NCBI GenBank assembly: GCA_003223245.1
Contig: QHYI01000130.1
Location: 103,168 to 167,167, forward strand
Source: Acidobacteriota bacterium
GTDB lineage: Bacteria; Acidobacteriota; Terriglobia; Acidiferrales; UBA7541
Length of the DNA stretch: 64,000 nt
Reading direction: 5' to 3'
A program made the position numbers and the translations under genes. Below the pieces are notes generated by a model. It did no database searches, was not told the DNA's origin, and saw only the letters and a program-made list of their open reading frames with translations. Of this stretch, positions 26,147 to 38,722 are shown piece by piece. Each line of letters opens with the position of its first letter. Within the stretch, counting starts at the first letter, position 1.

Positions 26147-26962
26147 ATGGTGGGTGACTGGAAAAAATTCGAGGGCCAGTTTTTCCAAGACAATTTTCCT
26201 CTTCAAAAGTTTTTGGGCAGCACGAGCTACAGCGCGGTCTTCCTAACGCAAACCCCCCCGCCGGAGCCAAAAACTCTCGCCATCAAATTTATAAGTTCTG
26301 GCGCGAAGGCAGATTTCCACGCCTCTCTTTTGCGCCGCGCTTCAAAGCTTGTTCATCCAAATCTCCTTCGCCTGCTGCCTGGCGGCCCCTGCCGCCTTGC
26401 GGGTATGGATTTGGTTTTCGGGATGATGGAATACGCGAACCAAAACCTTGGACAAGTTATCCGCCGTCGTCCACTCACCAAAAAGGAAGCGCACGAATTG
26501 CTCGAATCGCTCCTCGACGCGCTTGGCTATATCCACAGCGAAGGCTTTGCCCACTCTCACATCAAACCTTCGAACATCATGGCCGTGGGCAATCAACTCA
26601 AGCTCTCAAACGACGCGGTTCTCCCCCTCGGCGAACCTCGCCCGGCCTACCGCCCGCTTGACGCTTACGACCCGCCCGAGGCAGGCTCCGCGCCGGTTGC
26701 GCCTTCGAACGACGTTTGGTCTCTGGCGGTAACGCTGCTCGAAGTACTTACGCAGCAAGCTCCTGTATCATCTCTCGAGAGCCGAGACGATCCCGCCGTT
26801 CCTTCCACGATTCCTCAGCCCTTTTTCGACATCGCGCGAAACTGTTTGCGTCGAGATCCTCGGCTCCGCTGGACCACCGCTCAAATCAAGGATGCTCTCA
26901 AGTCTCTCCCGTCCAACTCCCCGCACCTGCCCCAGCGCTCGCCGCCACTGAATAAACAATAG
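26147..26962 (+). CDS. Ser/Thr protein-kinase-like pseudokinase, first of a tandem pair
   Basis: 271 residues covering one kinase fold. The glycine loop (LGSTSYSAVF, residues 23-32), the VAIK-type lysine K47, a lysine K140 and N143 of the catalytic loop, a PPE in place of APE (176-178) and the DVWSLAVTLLE segment are present. The HRD catalytic aspartate is replaced (HSH at 136-138) and DFG is replaced by DAV. The fold is therefore kept but phosphotransfer is unlikely. It is a close tandem duplicate of the next gene, with long stretches nearly identical at DNA level and a similar upstream sequence. No membrane span follows the kinase domain. Confidence 0.82.
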   Translation: MVGDWKKFEGQFFQDNFPLQKFLGSTSYSAVFLTQTPPPEPKTLAIKFISSGAKADFHASLLRRASKLVHPNLLRLLPGGPCRLAGMDLVFGMMEYANQNLGQVIRRRPLTKKEAHELLESLLDALGYIHSEGFAHSHIKPSNIMAVGNQLKLSNDAVLPLGEPRPAYRPLDAYDPPEAGSAPVAPSNDVWSLAVTLLEVLTQQAPVSSLESRDDPAVPSTIPQPFFDIARNCLRRDPRLRWTTAQIKDALKSLPSNSPHLPQRSPPLNKQ

Positions 26963-27081
26963 TCTGTATTTGCCCTGTTGTGCGAGAATTGGTCACGCCC
27001 ATGCTCCAGGTTTAGGCGATTTCAGGGTCCTCATCGCCTTTAATCCGCAGCCTTGCCCAACCGCGCTTGTGGGGTGTGCCA

Positions 27082-28866
27082 ATGAGAGATGACTGGAAAA
27101 AGTTTGAAGGCCAGGTTTTCCAGAACAGGTTTCCGCTTCAGAGGCTTTTAGGCGGTACGAGCTACGGCGCGGTCTTCTTGACGCAATCCCCTCCCCCGGA
27201 GCCCAAAAATCTGGCCATCAAATTTATAAGTTGTGGGGTAAAGGCAGACTTCCAAGCCTCTCTGTTTCAACGCGCTTCGAAGCTGAGTCATCCAAATCTG
27301 CTCCGCCTGTTGCCTGGCGGCCCCTGCCGGTTTCTGGATATGGATTTGGCCTTCGCGTTGATGGAATACGCGGAGGAAGACCTCGGACGAGGTCTTTCCG
27401 GCCGGGTCCTCAGCGAAAAAGAAATTCGCGAAATGCTCGAACCGCTCCTCGACGCACTGACCTATATCCACAGCAATGGCTTTGCCCATTCTCACATCAA
27501 ACCTTCGAACATTTTGGCCATCGGCAATCAACGCAAGCTCTCAAGCGACATGCTTCTCCCCCTCGGCGAACCTCGCCCGGCCTACCGCCCGCTTGACGCT
27601 TACGACCCGCCCGAGGCAGGCTCCGCGCCGGTTGCTCCTTCATGGGACATTTGGTCTCTGGGTGTGACGCTGCTCGAAGTCCTCACGCCCGAAACTCCTG
27701 TTTCATCTCCCGAAAGGCAAGACGATCCCGCCGTTCCATCCACGATTCCTCAGCCCTTCTTCGACATCGCACGGAACTGTTTGCGTCGAGAGCCTTCGCT
27801 GCGCTTTACCGCCGCTCAAATCAGAGATTGTCTCAACCCCGCTTCCGTTCAGGTGGCCGTCGCCGCTGGAGCGGCAGGGGTCATTGAACAGAAAATTGAA
27901 CAGAAAATTGAGCAGAAAAGTGAACAGAAGAGTGAACAGAAAATAGACCCCGCGAAGGAGAATCCCGCTCCCGTCGAAGTTGCCGCACCGGCAGAGACTG
28001 CGGGCGAGGAAAAGAAGATAGAGCCTCCGAAGGAAATGTGGGTAAACAGCAATTATTGCTGGGTGGTTGTATGTAAGAACCACTGGTTTCACGGGCGGGG
28101 CAATTTCTTTACCGTGCACCGGATTCCATTGGGGGAGACCGACGCGGTGTGGCCTCGACCGAAGGTCGATAAACCATTTGGGGTCCGCTGCGATGAATGC
28201 GGCAAGGAATACATCTATCAGCCCTCCGATGTATTGAAATACGAAATGGAAGCGCCTGCGTCTTTTGTACCCCATCCGCTGTTCGAGAAAAACCCCGAGA
28301 CCGACGACGAGTCCGAGTCCGCAGTGCCCCCACCTGCAAATATGCAAGACCTGCAGTTCGCGCGAAGAAAACGGTTAGTGCGAGCCTTGCAACAGGTTGG
28401 GGTGGCGGCTTGCTTAACCCTGATCGTTGCTGAATTTGTCCTAACCAATATGCCCAAGCTATCCGCGGATGTTTCTGGTCCATTACGTCCTGACGACCTC
28501 ATGGGAGCCAAGTTCAATCTGTCCAATAACGGCTTGTTGTCTGTTTACGATGTGAAAGCCGGATGCAAAGTGATGCGCGTTGACACACCTCTTTCTACAA
28601 ACAGAGATTTTGCGGAACCCACAACCGTCTATTTCCCTGAATCCTATGCTGAAATCTTGTCTCCTGGGCATGACATGGCGGTTCCGTGTGGACGAGCAAT
28701 CTCGATCAAGCCCGCCAATATCCAAGCGTCGGAAATCCACGCAGAAATGTTCTTTGTTGTCAGCTACAGGCCGAAAGGCGTCTGGTGGCACAAATCCGAA
28801 AATTTCCCGATGGAAACGCAGAAAACAGAAAATGGAAAGTGGGTATGGAAAAGCATCCCACGATGA
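27082..28866 (+). CDS. Membrane-anchored pseudokinase with C-terminal zinc-ribbon-like and extracytoplasmic domain
   Basis: 594 residues from ATG 27082, chosen by alignment with its neighbour (MRDDWKKFEG against MVGDWKKFEG). Residues 1-255 repeat the neighbour's kinase domain with the same losses: HSH for HRD and DML for DFG. A linker of repeated EQK units (about 268-293) follows, then a small domain with CDECGK near residue 369 that may bind zinc together with an upstream C..H pair. One membrane span lies at about 437-457, and about 135 residues outside the cell end the protein. The outside domain is not recognised. Upstream region similarity shows the duplication included the promoter. Confidence 0.82.
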   Translation: MRDDWKKFEGQVFQNRFPLQRLLGGTSYGAVFLTQSPPPEPKNLAIKFISCGVKADFQASLFQRASKLSHPNLLRLLPGGPCRFLDMDLAFALMEYAEEDLGRGLSGRVLSEKEIREMLEPLLDALTYIHSNGFAHSHIKPSNILAIGNQRKLSSDMLLPLGEPRPAYRPLDAYDPPEAGSAPVAPSWDIWSLGVTLLEVLTPETPVSSPERQDDPAVPSTIPQPFFDIARNCLRREPSLRFTAAQIRDCLNPASVQVAVAAGAAGVIEQKIEQKIEQKSEQKSEQKIDPAKENPAPVEVAAPAETAGEEKKIEPPKEMWVNSNYCWVVVCKNHWFHGRGNFFTVHRIPLGETDAVWPRPKVDKPFGVRCDECGKEYIYQPSDVLKYEMEAPASFVPHPLFEKNPETDDESESAVPPPANMQDLQFARRKRLVRALQQVGVAACLTLIVAEFVLTNMPKLSADVSGPLRPDDLMGAKFNLSNNGLLSVYDVKAGCKVMRVDTPLSTNRDFAEPTTVYFPESYAEILSPGHDMAVPCGRAISIKPANIQASEIHAEMFFVVSYRPKGVWWHKSENFPMETQKTENGKWVWKSIPR

Positions 28867-29186: not shown

Positions 29187-30551
29187 ATGCTCAAGCTTTC
29201 GTCACTTTTTGCTTCACTCTTCTTCCTACTTTCTTCTGGAATCGTGTCTGCAAAGGGCTCTCACGCGGAGGAACCGCAGGAGGCCGCACATCCATCTAAC
29301 ACGAGCGTCTCAGGCCGATGGATCATCACTGTGGACGTTTACGGGACCCCGCTTTTCTACCAGATGCATTTGAAGGAGGAGGCGGGAAAACTTACAGGAG
29401 ATTTTGGCGGCGACAAGCTTGAGGGAACCGTCACGGGCAATTCCATCCATTTTGTTGCCAAAGACGAGCAGGGCGGGACGGAGGAGTGCACGGCCACTTT
29501 GAAAGAGGGAACCATGTCCGGGACATTCGTGTTTACGGATGCAGGCGACCCGACTCGTCCGGAAACACATGCGTTCACAGCGGCTCTTGCGCCAGAGCGG
29601 CGCACGGGGCCAGCGAGACGGCACGAGTTCGTCCCCACAACGTTTTACCGCCAATTTTCCTCGGCGAACAAGCCGGTGCTGACCATCTCGCCGGGAGACA
29701 CCGTTCACACAACAACTGTGGACGCTGGCGGAACCGACGAAAAAGGTGTGACCCGCGTCCTGGGAGGAAATCCAGAGACTGGGCCTTTCTACGTGGAGAC
29801 GGCGATGCCGGGCGACACCCTGGTGGTGCATCTGACGCGCGTGCGCCTCAACCGCGATTGGGCCATCAGCGACGATGGGATCGTCCCCCGCGGCCTGGAC
29901 ACCGGCCTCGCCGTGAAAATGAAGGACGGCGGAAAATCCGTGCGCTGGCATTTGGACACGGCTCTCGGCGTGGCAACACCCGGGAAACCATCGGAACATT
30001 TGGCACATTATTCCGTGCCGCTGCGGCCGATGCTGGGATGCGTAGCGACCGCTCCGCCTCCTGCGGCGGCGCCTCCAGGTACGGGCGACTCGGGAGGTTA
30101 TGGCGGGAACATGGATTTTAATGAAGTGGCCGAGGGCGCCACGATCTATTTGCCGGTGCGGACGCCTGGCGCTCTGCTTTATCTAGGGGACGGTCACGCG
30201 GCCCAAGGCGACGGCGAATTGAACGGCAACGCGCTTGAAACTTCCATGGACGTCGAATTCACCGCGGACGTAATCCCCGGAAAACGCGTGCCGGGTCCGC
30301 GAGTCGAGTCTCCTACGCACATCATGGCCGTAGGACTGGCTGGGTCGATTGACGACGCCTTCCGCGACGCTACCGCAAATATGGCTGCATGGCTTGAGGA
30401 GAAATATGCATTGACCCCGCCGGAAGTGGCGGAAGTGTTGGGCACCGCGGCGGAGTATAAAGTGAGCGAGGTTGCTGACCGCAACGCCGGCGTCGTGCTG
30501 AAAATTAACAAAGAACGCCTGCTCGCGCTTCCCGCCGCACCTGCTAAGTAA
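29187..30551 (+). CDS. Secreted acetamidase/formamidase family protein
   Basis: 454 residues from ATG 29187, which has GAGG eight bases upstream; a GTG six bases earlier is less well placed. A signal peptide covers about residues 1-24. Residues about 40-130 form a separate beta-rich domain (GTPLFYQMHLKEEAGKLTG). The acetamidase/formamidase fold follows (FVPTTFYRQF, TVDAGGTDEKG, GDTLVVHL, LGDGHAAQGDGE). Formamidases hydrolyse small amides to ammonia; the GDGHAAQGDGE metal-site region is intact. The extra N-terminal domain and export set it apart from cytoplasmic formamidases. Confidence 0.9.
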   Translation: MLKLSSLFASLFFLLSSGIVSAKGSHAEEPQEAAHPSNTSVSGRWIITVDVYGTPLFYQMHLKEEAGKLTGDFGGDKLEGTVTGNSIHFVAKDEQGGTEECTATLKEGTMSGTFVFTDAGDPTRPETHAFTAALAPERRTGPARRHEFVPTTFYRQFSSANKPVLTISPGDTVHTTTVDAGGTDEKGVTRVLGGNPETGPFYVETAMPGDTLVVHLTRVRLNRDWAISDDGIVPRGLDTGLAVKMKDGGKSVRWHLDTALGVATPGKPSEHLAHYSVPLRPMLGCVATAPPPAAAPPGTGDSGGYGGNMDFNEVAEGATIYLPVRTPGALLYLGDGHAAQGDGELNGNALETSMDVEFTADVIPGKRVPGPRVESPTHIMAVGLAGSIDDAFRDATANMAAWLEEKYALTPPEVAEVLGTAAEYKVSEVADRNAGVVLKINKERLLALPAAPAK

Positions 30552-30620
30552 GCCAGGGCCGCCGCAACTCCGCGATGTGGAGGGCCCCAGCGGTCAAACA
30601 GACGCAGCCGAGCGGCCCGC

Positions 30621-31154
30621 CTAAACGCCCAAGTCCGGTATCGCCCGCAAGGCATCGTTGAAGCGGTTGGTGAAATTCGCGAGACAGACGACCATGGTGA
30701 GTTCCACGATTTGTGCTTCGTCAAAAAACTTCCGCAATTCCTCGAGCGTGCCCGTGCGCATCGCGGCCGCTCCGCGCGTTACGCGCTCGGCGTACAAAAG
30801 CGTGGCTTTGTCCTTCTCATCAAAGAGCGGGCTGCGCTCATAAAACTCGAGTGCCTGGATCTGTTCGTCGGTAATGCCGATTCGCTTCGACGAAGCGATA
30901 TGCGCGCGCGTTCAATATTCGCACCCGTTGAGCAGCGACGTTTTTAGGTAGGCCAGCTCTTTGTAGCGCGCTTCGACCGCGCCTTCGTTCATGATGGCCC
31001 CGAACAAAGGCAGGAAATTCTTCAGCACGTTCGGCCGGTGGGCCATCAGCCCGAAAATCGCGGGCATTTTGCCGAATTTTTTGGGCAACTCTTCGTAGAC
31101 AGCGCGCAGCTCTGGCGCAGCTTTTTCTTTTGTCAAAGGACTGACAACGGCCAT
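30621..31154 (-). CDS. AhpD/carboxymuconolactone decarboxylase-like selenoprotein with in-frame TGA
   Basis: 177 codons, ATG 31154 with a GGAGG site six bases upstream, stop TAG at 30623-30621. Codon 81 (30914-30912) is TGA. The surrounding residues, LNGCEY-TGA-TRAH, fit the AhpD catalytic motif C-x-x-C-x-x-x-H with TGA at the second cysteine (C78, U81, H85; E66 upstream). Reading on gives 96 more codons of family-like sequence (GITDEQIQAL, FDEKDKATLLYAERVTRG, IVELTMVVCLANFTNRFND). AhpD proteins reduce peroxides or disulfides through this CxxC; CxxU versions are a known selenoprotein family. A SECIS-like hairpin and a nearby selA support selenocysteine over a pseudogene. Proof needs mass spectrometry or homologue comparison. 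Confidence 0.85.
30882..30898 (-). promoter_or_regulatory. SECIS-like hairpin of the AhpD selenoprotein
   Basis: On the minus strand a perfect 7-bp stem (UCGCUUC / GAAGCGA) with loop GUC begins 13 bases after the TGA. Bacterial SECIS elements sit directly after the UGA with a G in the apical loop; in E. coli fdhF the minimal element is also 17 nt and starts 11 nt after UGA. The loop G is 21 nt from the UGA, within the usual bacterial range. Hairpin is seen; SelB binding is inferred. Confidence 0.65.
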
Positions 31155-31798
31155 AAGCAACCTCCATAGGCAAGCAAATGAACATAGAAATTTTACCGGA
31201 GTTGATCCCGCTGAGGCTAGTAATTCGGGACCCAAGGAACCGCTTGAGCCGGATCAAACCCAGCAGCAAGGGTCTCCTTTGGGATGGAGCCAAAATTCAT
31301 AACGATCCGCTAACGCTCGATCGGCATCTTCCCCCGGCCAGCCCTGCGGCGCAAAACAGCAACCAGGGACTCGGGAGTGATGCGGCGCGCCTGACGGAGA
31401 TTTGCTCGGCACAAGCACCCAGCGCTGAACCGCTGGCACGGTCGAAATCGCACATGGAGAAGGGCTTAAGCGGGAGAAACTTTGCGCTACTTTTGGGGTT
31501 TGTGATCACTCTGTCGCCTGAAAGGCGACGGCTTCTCGCGGCACGCATGAGCATGAGACGACATCCTCTACGTTATGCCGCGAACGCCCGATCCGGGCGC
31601 GTTGCAGTATGCTGTCCACGGCAACGGATTTGCGCAGATTGATCAAAAGACTTTCGCGCGGAAGATTGGCTGGCCCGGTCCACGACGCCGGATGGAACGC
31701 TTTCTTTGCCATCTATACGCTTTGGCGACAGAGATGTTCGTTGTGTAGGTGAGAGGGCCACTCATTTGAAGCCATTAGGGCCAAGCACGCGCGGAGGT
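31155..31798. other. Gene-poor region upstream of the selenoprotein
   Basis: No gene is supported. The best candidate is a 57-codon plus-strand frame at 31575-31748 with no ribosome site and no known similarity. Composition looks non-coding or decayed. The promoter of the minus-strand selenoprotein gene should lie near 31155-31250. Confidence 0.4.
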
Positions 31799-32026
31799 TT
31801 ACCGAACGGTTGCGGCAGGCCGGGATACGCGACGGTTCCCCCGAGTGGAAGAGCGCTTGGAAGGTTTTCCACTCGGCTTAGAGTCAACGTTCATCGCCAT
31901 TCTGTGGATTTCCTTCATACGGCGGTCCTGTTCTTCTTTTGAAAACTGTTGCAAGGAGACATACAAAGTTTCTGCTATTTTTCTTGCGGCTTTTTTCTGC
32001 CTCGCGAGTTTGCTCTCGGTTCTCAT
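31799..32026 (-). CDS. Small basic protein of unknown function
   Basis: 75 residues from ATG 32026, with GGAG ten bases upstream. Highly charged, with a predicted helical first half (KLARQKKAARKIAETL, FSKEEQDRRMKEIHRMA) and a basic, Ser/Arg-rich tail. No family recognised. Even charge spacing and a plausible ribosome site make it more likely real than the other frames of this region, but support is weak. Confidence 0.42.
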   Translation of the reverse strand: MRTESKLARQKKAARKIAETLYVSLQQFSKEEQDRRMKEIHRMAMNVDSKPSGKPSKRSSTRGNRRVSRPAATVR

Positions 32027-34679: not shown

Positions 34680-34823
34680 AGGTATGGCCATCTTGTGGCT
34701 TGCGGCATGGCTGCCGTTCGCGGGAGGGTAAAAAGCCGTGCCCTCTACAAACATTCCTCTTGGGGGTGGGATGCGCATCCGACAGGATTGCCCGGGTGGG
34801 CGGCTCTGTGCTGAAATGTGCGC

Positions 34824-36272
34824 ATGGCGTCGCACACCAAACGAGGGATTTCGGCCGAACAGTCAGAACTGCTGCGGCAGATTCCGTCGGTCGACGAGCT
34901 GCTCGCCGAGCCGCGCCTGGCAGAGCTTGCGAAGCGCGTGGACCGCAATCTGGTCGTCGAAGTTGCGCGCGCCGTGCTGGAGGACCTGCGAGGACGCATC
35001 ACCGGGCAGGCGGCCACCGCCCTTCTCGCGGAAATTTCTCCTGTGGCGTGCGATCCGGCATCGCTCGAAGAGCGCATCACTAGGATGGTAGAGCGGATTC
35101 TGGCGCGGTCGCTGCTGCCGGTGATTAACGCGACAGGCGTGATTTTGCACACGAATCTGGGACGCGCGCCGCTGCCGGAAGGCGTAGTGGAAGAATTTCG
35201 CCGCACGGCGACGCGATATTCGAATCTCGAATATGACCTGGAAGCGGGATCGCGAGGGAAACGCGACGTGCATACGGCGGAACTGCTGAAGAGGCTCACG
35301 GGAGCGGAAGCCGCGATGGTGGTGAACAATTGCGCGGCAGCGGTGCTGGTCACGCTAGCGGCGTTTGCGCGCGGCGGCGAGGTGATTGTTTCGCGCGGCG
35401 AACTGATTGAGATTGGCGACGGGTTTCGCATCCCGGAAATCATGGAGCAGAGCGGGGCACAGTTGCGCGAGGTGGGAACGACGAATCGCACACGGCTCGC
35501 GGATTATGAGAAGGCGATCAACGAAAAAACGCGGTTGTTGCTGCGCGTGCATCCATCGAATTTCAAAGTAACCGGATTCACGGACAAACCGTCGCTTGAA
35601 GAACTTGTCTCGTTGAGCGAGCGCACGGGAATTGCTCTAGTGGAGGATCTTGGGTCCGGCTGCCTCACCGACTTGGCCGAGCACGGGATCAGCGAGCCGA
35701 CGGTGCGGCAGAGCGTGGAGGCGGGCGTTGGGATTGTGACCTTTAGCGGAGATAAGTTACTCGGCGGGCCGCAGGCGGGAATCCTTGCTGGGAAAAAAGA
35801 TTTGATTGCACGCGTGCGGCGGCATCCGATGTTCCGCGCACTGCGGGTGGACAAACTGACGACTGCAGCGCTGGAAGTCACGCTCGGCGCGTATCTGCGC
35901 GCGGCGTGGGACGAAATTCCGGTGATGCGGATGATTCGCGTGACGCCACAGGAATTGCAGCGCCGCGCGGAGAATTTCATCCGCGAGCTGCGCCCGGAGC
36001 TACCGCGAGACGAAGTGGAGATCGAGGTGGTAGACGGAGCTTCGCTGGCCGGAGGCGGCTCGACTCCAACACAATCGCTGCCCAGCAAAGTGGTTCGCAT
36101 TGCCAGCGCTCGCTATTCCGCCGCAAAGCTCGGGCAGCGTCTGCGCCGCGCGCCGGCGGGGATTTCCGTCATTGCGCGCGTGGAAGAAGATCGCCTGGTC
36201 CTCGATTTGCGGACTGTATTTCCCCACGAGGAACCTTTACTTCTCAAGACACTCGCCGCCGCGCTGCGCTAG
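34824..36272 (+). CDS. selA: L-seryl-tRNA(Sec) selenium transferase
   Basis: 482 residues from ATG 34824 (a GTG two codons earlier is possible). SelA converts seryl-tRNA(Sec) to selenocysteyl-tRNA(Sec) using selenophosphate. The family pattern runs throughout: LPVINATGVILHTNLGRAP is cut here as INATGVILHTNLGRAPL, YSNLEYDLEAGSRGKRD, VVNNCAAAVLV, EVGTTNRT, and the PLP lysine K311 in FSGDKLLGGPQAG. Length fits bacterial SelA (460-480). Its presence means the cell uses selenocysteine; selB, selC (tRNA) and selD are not in the window. Confidence 0.97.
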   Translation: MASHTKRGISAEQSELLRQIPSVDELLAEPRLAELAKRVDRNLVVEVARAVLEDLRGRITGQAATALLAEISPVACDPASLEERITRMVERILARSLLPVINATGVILHTNLGRAPLPEGVVEEFRRTATRYSNLEYDLEAGSRGKRDVHTAELLKRLTGAEAAMVVNNCAAAVLVTLAAFARGGEVIVSRGELIEIGDGFRIPEIMEQSGAQLREVGTTNRTRLADYEKAINEKTRLLLRVHPSNFKVTGFTDKPSLEELVSLSERTGIALVEDLGSGCLTDLAEHGISEPTVRQSVEAGVGIVTFSGDKLLGGPQAGILAGKKDLIARVRRHPMFRALRVDKLTTAALEVTLGAYLRAAWDEIPVMRMIRVTPQELQRRAENFIRELRPELPRDEVEIEVVDGASLAGGGSTPTQSLPSKVVRIASARYSAAKLGQRLRRAPAGISVIARVEEDRLVLDLRTVFPHEEPLLLKTLAAALR

Positions 36273-36306: not shown

Positions 36307-38722
36307 GTGGGAAGGGGTCATCCAATAGAAAACCTAGGCCAAGATATCCGATACTCCGTCCGCACGCTGAGCAAGAACCCGGGCTTTGCCGCAGTCGCGA
36401 TGTTGACGCTGGCACTGGGCATTGGAGCCAATACCGCGATATTCAGCGTAGTGGAGAACGTGCTGTTGCGGCCCCTGCCTTACCCGCAGCCGGAAAACCT
36501 GGTGCAAATCTGGAATACCTATCAGCCGCAAGTACCGCGTGCCGGATTGTCGCCGGGAGATTATGCCGACTGGAAGCGGCAAAACTCGAGCTTTTCGGAA
36601 ATGGGAGCTTACGTCCAACTCACCCAGGGATTCAATCTGACCGGCGAAGGCGAGCCGCAGCGGGTGCTGGGGAGCTACGCAAGTGTGGGCCTGTTCCCCT
36701 TGCTTGGGTCGGGCGGGAAGCGCTCCGGCAGTGATTTTGAGTCATCGGCTGTGGGAGAGCCGGTTTGGAGGCGATCCCGGCGTGGTAGGGCGAGTGATCA
36801 CGCTCGACAACCAGCGTTATGCGGTAGAGGGCGTGCTGCCGGCGGATTTTCGCCTGCTGCGCTGGCCGGACCTTTGGATGCCCATTGGGCAGTATGCGGA
36901 TGACTTGAGCGAGCACGTCCATCACGCCTTCATCGGCGTCGCGCGGCTCAAGCCCGGGGTTACGCTGGCCGAAGCCCAAGATGAAATGAACCGCCTGAAC
37001 CAACAGGAAACCGTCGAGTACCCGGATTCGCACAAATTTTTCGGCGTGCTCGTCGAGCGCATGGAGGACCTATCGGCTGAGAAATTACGAAGCATCCTCC
37101 TGGTCCTTTCGGGCGCTGTGGGACTGGTGTTGCTGATTGCGTGCGCGAACATCGTGAATCTGCTGCTGGTGCGGAACGCCGGGAGGGAGCGAGAAGTAGC
37201 CTTGCGCACGGCATTGGGCGCAAGCGCGTGGCGGTTGTCGCGGCAATTGCTGACCGAAAGCATGTTGCTGTCGCTCGGTGGCGGGGCGCTCGGATTACTG
37301 CTGGCGGTTGGCGGCCTGCGGGTCTTGATGGCGTTGGCGCCCGCAGATCTTGGCGTATTGCGAGAAAGTGGCGTGAACGGGCAGGTGCTGGCGTTTACGG
37401 CCCTGGTTTGCGTGGCCGCGGGAATCATTTGCGGGCTGCTTCCGGCGCTGCGCGCGCTTCGCGCAAACCTCGCGGGAGTTCTCAAGCAAGGAAGCAAAGC
37501 GACGAGCGGCTCAGGCGCTCGCCGGACGCACAATCTCCTGGTCATCTCCGAGATTGCCATGGCGCTTGTGCCGCTCGTCGGAGCAGGACTGCTGCTGCGG
37601 AGTTTCCAGCACTTGCTGGACGTGCAACCGGGTTTCCGCGTGGACCACATCCTGACGATGGAAGTACAGCAAGCGGCGATACCCTTTACGGAGGCCAGCA
37701 AGCTTTCGCAACAAGATTGGATCCAAATTCAGGAGAAGCAATCCCTGCAATTCGAGCAAATCGCGGAGAAGATCCGCGCGCTCCCGGGGGTGAAGGATGC
37801 CGCGGGCACTGACGATCTGCCCTTGAGCAATGAATTTGGCCAGGCATCACGGTTTGTAATCGAGGGCCAGCCGATCCCTAATGCTGGTGCGCGGCCGCTT
37901 GTGCAGTTTCGAACCGTGAGCCTCAACTATTTTTCGACCGCGGGCATTCCCTTGCGGGAGGGCCGCTTGTTTACCGAAGACGACTGGAAAGTGCCGAGAG
38001 GTGTGATCAACGAGACCATGGCGAAGCGCTTTTGGCCCAAAGGCGATGCCATCGGGAAACGCATCAATCTGTGCTCGCTCGATCCCAAACCGTGCTGGAG
38101 CACAATCATTGGAATCGTTGGAAATGTGCACCAGTTCGGCCTGGATGGCGCACCGACCTTTGACGTGTACTTCGTGGGCGGTTGGACTCCTTATGTAGTG
38201 GTGCGGACCGCGACCGATCCTTTGACGCTGGCCGCTGCGGTCACGGAGGTGATTCACAAGGCAGCTCCGGACCTGCCGGTAACCCATGTGATGACCATGG
38301 AAGAGCTGCTCCGAGGCTCCGTCTCGCCGCGGCGATTCTCCGCGATGCTGGTTGGGATTTTTGCCATCCTGGGGGCGGTGCTCGCCGCGGTGGGCATCTA
38401 TGGAGTAATGAGTTACGCGGTGAGCCAGAGGACGCAGGAAATTGGCGTGCGCATGGCGCTCGGAGCGCAGGCGGGAAATGTGCGCAGCATGATTCTGATG
38501 CAGACCTTCAAGCTGACGGCGGCGGGCGTGGTGATTGGGCTGGCAGGAGCGTTTGTGGTGGCGCGCTTTTTGACCAGCTTGCTGTTTGGCGTTGGGACGC
38601 ACGATCCGATTACGTTTCTGGGCGTGGCGTTACTGCTGATTCTGGTGGCGTTGGTGGCGGCGTACGTGCCGGCGCACCGCGCCATGCGAGTGGATCCCAT
38701 CGTGGCGCTGCGGTACGAGTAG
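36307..38722 (+). pseudogene. MacB/FtsX-type orphan permease, split by frameshift
   Basis: The N-terminal part reads in one frame from GTG 36307 ([21 protein letters not shown], then [13 protein letters not shown]) and stops matching near 36705. The match resumes in the next frame at about 36712 as [21 protein letters not shown] and continues to the signature DPIVALRYE at 38722. About 15 residues expected between LLG and GSAPA (the LLGR.F.P stretch of intact copies) are missing, so this is an out-of-frame deletion. The rest has full permease architecture. Confidence 0.88.

Follow-up and report, generated by a model that had tools for sequence, protein, structure and literature searches.

A gene on the minus strand of the window (the whole stretch of 64,000 nucleotides that was analysed) contains a single in-frame UGA codon, which is very likely read as selenocysteine (Sec) to give a 177-residue AhpD-like selenoenzyme with a CxxU motif. 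Such a reading had been proposed from the letters of the DNA and its open reading frames (hereafter the sequence-only reading), and it is supported by a TGA site conserved among orthologues, by a covarying hairpin 3' of this codon, and by genes for SelA, SelB, SelD and tRNA-Sec in the source genome.

The gene and its in-frame UGA

The frame runs on the minus strand from 31154 to 30621, opens with ATG, closes with TAG, and comprises 177 codons with one internal stop, the TGA at codon 81. The motif at the site is C78-E-Y-TGA81-T-R-A-H85, and 96 sense codons follow. The two structural statements of the sequence-only reading, that the TGA occupies the place of the second Cys of the AhpD CxxC motif and that 96 sense codons separate it from the TAG, were both confirmed by reading this frame. 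The plus-strand reading of 30621-31154 was also tried and was rejected, being meaningless sequence.

30621..31154, minus strand: predicted AhpD-like selenoprotein gene (CMD family, PF02627), ATG to TAG; from the frame, the domain match and the TGA orthologues
30912..30914, minus strand: TGA in frame at codon 81, predicted Sec in the place of the second CxxC Cys; present at this site in 22 of 33 distinct orthologues
31161..31165, minus strand: GGAGG, likely ribosome-binding site 6 nt 5' of the ATG; seen in the sequence

Open reading frame (ORF) calling with table 11 (at least 80 amino acids) returns in this frame only the portion before the TGA, as an ORF of 107 amino acids that starts at an upstream TTG; counted from the ATG of the gene, 80 residues are left. 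This accords with the truncation at 80 residues that the sequence-only reading expected of standard annotation. A scan of 30500-31900 for promoters and terminators gave no promoter-like site, and two terminator-like sites against 2.2 expected.

Orthologues at the DNA level

Orthologues were sought in DNA with the protein as query and with stops read through. Among 89 genomes of the family, 22 gave a match at E ≤ 1e-20, and among 95 genomes of the order (the 89 included), 17 gave a match at E ≤ 1e-40; contigs of named genomes were searched as well (36 loci). Of 65 loci examined, 11 duplicates, six partial loci (L022, L025, L026, L072, L073 and L074) and 15 loci under 55% identity were kept out of the counts, leaving 33 distinct full orthologues (at least 55% identity, the window gene included).

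The site codon is TGA in 22 of the 33 and a Cys codon (TGC or TGT) in 11. An in-frame UGA aligned with the Cys of homologues is one criterion for a bacterial selenoprotein gene, and this is the pattern found. None of the 22 TGA rows has a second in-frame stop across the aligned frame. Where the records carry titles, the orthologues belong to Acidobacteriota and to Candidatus Rokubacteria or Rokuibacteriota. The argument that a chance nonsense mutation would rarely hit this one codon is thus strengthened by the recurrence of TGA at this very position, with no further in-frame stop, in 22 of the 33. A sequencing error was also considered, and an identical TGA is present in 21 other distinct loci. 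As to the residue at the site, all 33 close full orthologues have a Cys codon or TGA, while the 15 distant loci (30-45% identity) have TGA in ten, Cys in two and Ala in three; the Ala codons indicate that the site is not invariant far out.

Some of the other loci are of separate interest. Five AhpD-like loci from records of Rokubacteria, NC10 and Methylomirabilota (L066-L069 and L071; 33-37% identity) have the motif C-x-Y-U-ATHN, and visual inspection suggests a hairpin 3' of the UGA whose loop is GGUC-like; L066, the one of them that was tested, passed no cut-off among the NCBIfam models matched. The partial locus L022 (genome G002, contig C97, 1501-1882) keeps the TGA, but its usual sequence past codon 84 is gone together with the hairpin, as in a decayed copy.

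Coding selection past the UGA

The pN/pS ratio was calculated on 20 TGA rows, without L053 (partial) and L064 (one-codon gap). It is 0.377 for codons 1-80 and 0.285 for codons 93-175. A shift of the reading frame by one or two bases over codons 93-172 raises the ratio to 1.34 and 1.88, respectively; synonymous change is near saturation, which makes the ratios themselves rough, but not the contrast between frames. The sequence past the UGA thus evolves as protein, under purifying selection.

The SECIS-like hairpin

A predicted hairpin that resembles a bacterial SECIS element lies within the coding sequence:

30882..30898, minus strand: SECIS-like hairpin UCGCUUC-GUC-GAAGCGA, 7 bp, 3-nt loop with G first, 20 nt from UGA to loop; from folding, alignment and covariation

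In the 22 TGA rows, all 154 base-pair cells hold standard pairs, and three of the seven pairs show two-sided (compensatory) changes. In the same columns of the 11 Cys rows, 40 of 77 cells are paired (51.9%), and two-sided changes are absent. The observed covariation score, percentage paired and number of two-sided cells were each reached by none of 500 shuffles, while two weaker measures, the number of pairs with two-sided changes and the pair types, were reached by 6 and 184 of the 500, respectively; in such comparisons related sequences may beat shuffles without any structure. Sliding the partner strand by 1-3 columns lowers pairing to 36-55%; the +1 slide still has seven two-sided cells against nine in register, though its pairing is only 52.6%. 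RNAalifold recovers the same stem unprompted. Synonymous change in the stem (codons 86-91) is also much lower with TGA (pS 0.140 in 20 TGA rows vs 0.590 in 11 Cys rows), and in codons 93-175 it is 0.617 and 0.634, respectively.

The bacterial SECIS model, as given in a recent review (PMC13188914), has a loop of 3-9 nt, a stem of 4-16 bp, a distance of 16-37 nt from the UGA, a G in the first two loop positions, and a minimum free energy of -7.5 kcal/mol or lower. The window hairpin (3 nt, 7 bp, 20 nt, G first) lies within all of the structural limits, and at -7.7 kcal/mol in isolation it is also within the energy limit. The isolated hairpins of L011 (-5.6 kcal/mol) and L013 (-7.3 kcal/mol) miss the energy limit, and that limit only; in L011 the hairpin is absent from the 49-nt minimum-energy fold. 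Hairpin stability does not differ significantly from that of shuffles (z +0.15 to +0.86), and the case for the hairpin therefore rests on the covariation and on the contrast between TGA and Cys rows. An Rfam search of 30500-31300 gave no match up to E 1.

Selenocysteine machinery

The source genome (95.8% complete, 237 contigs) has tRNA-Sec with anticodon TCA (contig C156, 64.4 bits), SelB (C180, 356.9 bits) and SelD (C232, 345.5 bits). The remaining gene is located in the window:

34818..36272, plus strand: selA, L-seryl-tRNA(Sec) selenium transferase; TIGR00474, 564 bits

The sequence-only reading had named a genome without selB, selC and selD as a check on itself; selA, selB, selD and tRNA-Sec are all found. 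selA is near the AhpD-like gene but on the opposite strand, and the two do not form one operon. The selD match itself (L032, on C232 of genome G000) has one internal TGA and may be of the Sec-containing kind of SelD.

In the family, SelB is over the cut-off in 75 of the 89 genomes and tRNA-Sec is found in 68 of the 89. The comparison between genomes with the full TGA form and those with the full Cys form covers seven TGA rows (out of 22) and five Cys rows (out of 11). SelB is present in 7/7 TGA-form genomes and tRNA-Sec in 6/7, the exception being G052 (a MAG, 92% complete), which has SelB and no tRNA-Sec match. SelB and tRNA-Sec are each present in 1/5 Cys-form genomes, both in G077. The difference between the two groups gives a Fisher p of 0.010 for SelB and 0.072 for tRNA-Sec. 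On the tree, these observations amount to three independent contrasts, two of which are in the expected direction and one is without difference. The hairpin is weakened or lost in all five Cys-form genomes checked (four without SelB over the cut-off, and one with it). The lack of machinery in G079 may be a gap, because the completeness of this genome is only 73% and a further AhpD-like gene in it (L031) contains a TGA.

Family models and active-site residues

With the TGA read as Cys, the product was scored against Pfam and NCBIfam. PF02627 (CMD/AhpD) matches at 58.7 bits against a curated cut-off of 23, which places the product in that family. Of the NCBIfam models, only the short domain model TIGR00778 is passed (32.8 vs a cut-off of 27.8). 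The top-scoring one, NF053654, matches over near the whole length at 98.5 bits, with a cut-off of 310, and TIGR01926 (peroxid_rel) scores 78.8 bits for the window gene and 66.0-69.7 bits for L011, L033 and L054, all under its cut-off of 81.8. The branch of the gene is therefore outside the cut-offs of every full-length NCBIfam model matched.

A protein-database search found 685 homologues, and residue counts are taken from the 120 listed. The predicted active-site residues other than the Sec are as follows:

30957..30959, minus strand: Glu66 codon, predicted proton-relay Glu (equivalent to Glu36 of PA0269); E in 119/120 listed homologues, spacing as in PMC3141380
30921..30923, minus strand: codon for Cys78, the predicted resolving thiol at the first CxxU position; Cys in 119/120 listed homologues
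30900..30902, minus strand: His85 codon, predicted proton-relay His (equivalent to His55 of PA0269); H in 120/120 listed homologues

According to PMC3141380, the proton relay of PA0269 consists of Glu36, Cys48, Tyr50, Cys51 and His55. All five positions are present in the window gene (E66, C78, Y80, U81 and H85) with identical spacing, and among the 120 homologues listed of the 685, the E is found in 119, the first C in 119, the Y in 120 and the H in 120.

At the position of codon 81, 115 of the 120 listed homologues have Cys and five have Trp (P0002, P0003, P0004, P0040 and P0056). The Trp rows are likely UGA codons that were translated with table 4 in gene calling, which would place a false Trp in the catalytic site. 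Gene callers end a product at UGA, so that the protein database is expected to lack UGA forms, and the homologue counts are therefore uninformative on the frequency of Sec. A redox enzyme of soil bacteria is in these ways missed or mis-stated, being truncated by ORF calling and possibly given a false catalytic Trp in some databases.

Alternative readings of the UGA

If the gene were a pseudogene or the product of a sequencing error, the TGA would be either a true stop or a Cys codon that was read wrongly. The division of the genome into 237 contigs, the single base that separates Cys codons from TGA, and the existence of the truncated relative L022 are in keeping with this; however, the TGA is common to 22 distinct orthologues (of Acidobacteriota and Candidatus Rokubacteria, where named) that have no other in-frame stop, the sequence past it is under purifying selection, and the hairpin is fully paired in the TGA rows only, all of which makes such an explanation highly improbable. 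It is also hardly credible that the UGA is read as tryptophan, or is unspecifically suppressed, under a different genetic code. The five Trp rows among the 120 listed homologues would fit this, but they are most simply explained as UGA under table 4, and 115 of the same 120 have Cys. Moreover, UGA serves as the stop of three of nine window genes examined, tRNA-Sec and SelA, SelB and SelD are present, and the hairpin goes with the TGA.

Insertion of Sec is thus the preferred reading of the UGA. SelB would bind the hairpin and bring Sec-tRNA(Sec) to the UGA, where it would outcompete termination.

Exchange of Sec and Cys

A tree of the 33 orthologues has five changes of site state. In each of the five independent pairs, it is the TGA member that has the intact 7-bp hairpin (sign test 0.0625, the minimum for five pairs; the alignment for this tree retained the hairpin codons). 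When 13 Cys rows from the database and one outgroup are added, parsimony gives 10 changes, of which at least five are forced by supported branches, in a tree with many deep branches unresolved. Two Cys forms, L012 and L017, group with TGA forms and keep six of the seven pairs and the G-first loop, a pattern as expected of a recent change from Sec to Cys, the direction being inferred.

It is slightly more probable than not that this uncatalogued AhpD-like branch of Acidobacteriota and Rokubacteria had an ancestral selenoenzyme that reverted several times from Sec to Cys, and that the SECIS hairpins left behind show successive degrees of decay (7, 6, 4, 3 and 2 of 7 pairs). According to PMC1794560 (2006), the main trend is from Cys to Sec, changes from Sec to Cys are mostly those of FdhA and SelD, and remnant SECIS-like structures in Cys forms have already been described. 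Change from Sec to Cys with hairpin remnants is thus a known phenomenon, to which this branch would add a further case. If true, the branch would record, as a natural time series, how a selenoprotein other than formate dehydrogenase or SelD is lost. Because its Sec and Cys orthologues range from intact through weakened to lost hairpins, they would allow the benefit of Sec and the loss of a SECIS element to be tested in one small protein.

Structure and probable function

An AlphaFold2 model made with a 27-row alignment is all helices, with a pLDDT of 90.6. The top solved folds by Foldseek E-value are the Bmp8 debrominase (PDB 6ohi/6ohj), which shares the fold along almost the entire chain (TM 0.83-0.84), followed by PA0269 and AhpD-like proteins. 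Bmp8 differs in being a Cys protein, a debrominase by its depositors' naming, with 21-22% identity to the window gene. PA0269 (PDB 2o4d/2ijc) shows 33-34% identity in structural alignment and the same-spaced relay E-x11-C-x-Y-C-x3-H; it differs in having Cys in place of Sec and in being shorter, without about 30 N-terminal residues. By sequence, PA0269 (2ijc, E 1.5e-21) is matched more strongly than Bmp8 (6ohi, E 1.5e-11).

The favoured role, by analogy, would be reduction of peroxide or a related thiol-dependent reduction, with Sec81 attacking and Cys78 resolving, because of the AhpD relay and of the AhpD-like and CMD-like CxxU selenoproteins reported in PMC13188914, PMC2398784 and PMC1088965. 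As judged from the family, the relay of Glu66, Tyr80 and His85 would activate Sec81, which would attack peroxide or another reducible substrate; Cys78 would then attack Sec81 to form a selenenylsulfide, and a cellular dithiol would re-reduce it. It is possible, though less likely, that the gene encodes a real selenoprotein whose main job is not peroxide reduction but reductive dehalogenation, as in Bmp8 of the same fold, or some other reduction that depends on thiols. The Foldseek ranking of Bmp8 ahead of PA0269 and the AhpD entries points that way, as does the lack of a widely conserved neighbour such as AhpC across 33 stretches (see below). Against it are the stronger sequence match to PA0269, the presence of five out of five proton-relay positions, and the peroxidase activity measured for PA0269, which, according to PMC3141380, is weak and cysteine-dependent.

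The neighbourhood was assessed by clustering the ORFs of 33 stretches, i.e., those of 32 loci (L013 and L040 being on one contig) and window positions 20001-44000, with clusters of at least three stretches retained. The two largest clusters, of 17 and 15 stretches, consist of the gene and of ORFs antisense to it, and across the 33 stretches no other cluster exceeds four; there is thus no widely conserved neighbour, and the neighbourhood gives no basis for an operon function or for tying the gene to selA. The only other cluster with a window gene is that of MacB-like permeases (the window, L060 and L061). In the window this permease (36307-38722) is split between two ORFs, 36307-36903 and 36683-38722, which overlap but are not in the same frame; a frameshift or an assembly error would give this picture. 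Two similar tandem genes with Pkinase domains are located at 26147-28866 of the window.

Relation to known selenoproteins

The statement of the sequence-only reading that AhpD-like CxxU selenoproteins are an established family is borne out by two papers: they were described in 2005 (PMC1088965), and the 2026 review (PMC13188914) lists one, MCB9421940.1, under TIGR01926. This protein has its fold family in common with the window gene and has CxxU with Sec second, but the window gene falls just under the TIGR01926 cut-off (78.8 vs 81.8 bits), the comparison being made via the model. NF053654 (GroundWater_YciW, YciW-related (seleno)protein) is by name a selenoprotein family and matches the window gene over near its whole length, but the score of 98.5 bits is far below 310, which marks the gene as a distinct subfamily. 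A literature search by titles and the starts of abstracts, which took in few subscription papers, found none that names the AhpD-like branch of Acidobacteriota and Rokubacteria. The enzyme class is therefore already known, and what the gene adds is an AhpD-like selenoprotein beyond the full-length NCBIfam cut-offs; in addition, Sec and Cys have been exchanged repeatedly on the tree of the 33 orthologues, and it is the Cys forms whose hairpin has decayed.

Two further AhpD-like genes with an in-frame TGA are found in the same genome (G000). The second, L091 (contig C80, TGA at 1615-1617), has the motif NRC-H-Y-U-IVSH, and 17 nt past its UGA a hairpin of 7 bp is predicted, the loop being GUU; its CMD match of 21.8 is below the Pfam cut-off of 23. 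The third, L090 (contig C101, TGA at 1621-1623), has the motif VGC-P-F-U-IDIH and is likewise predicted to form a hairpin, here with a GUG loop; it may be frameshifted or decayed, because a further stop follows 25 codons after the TGA.
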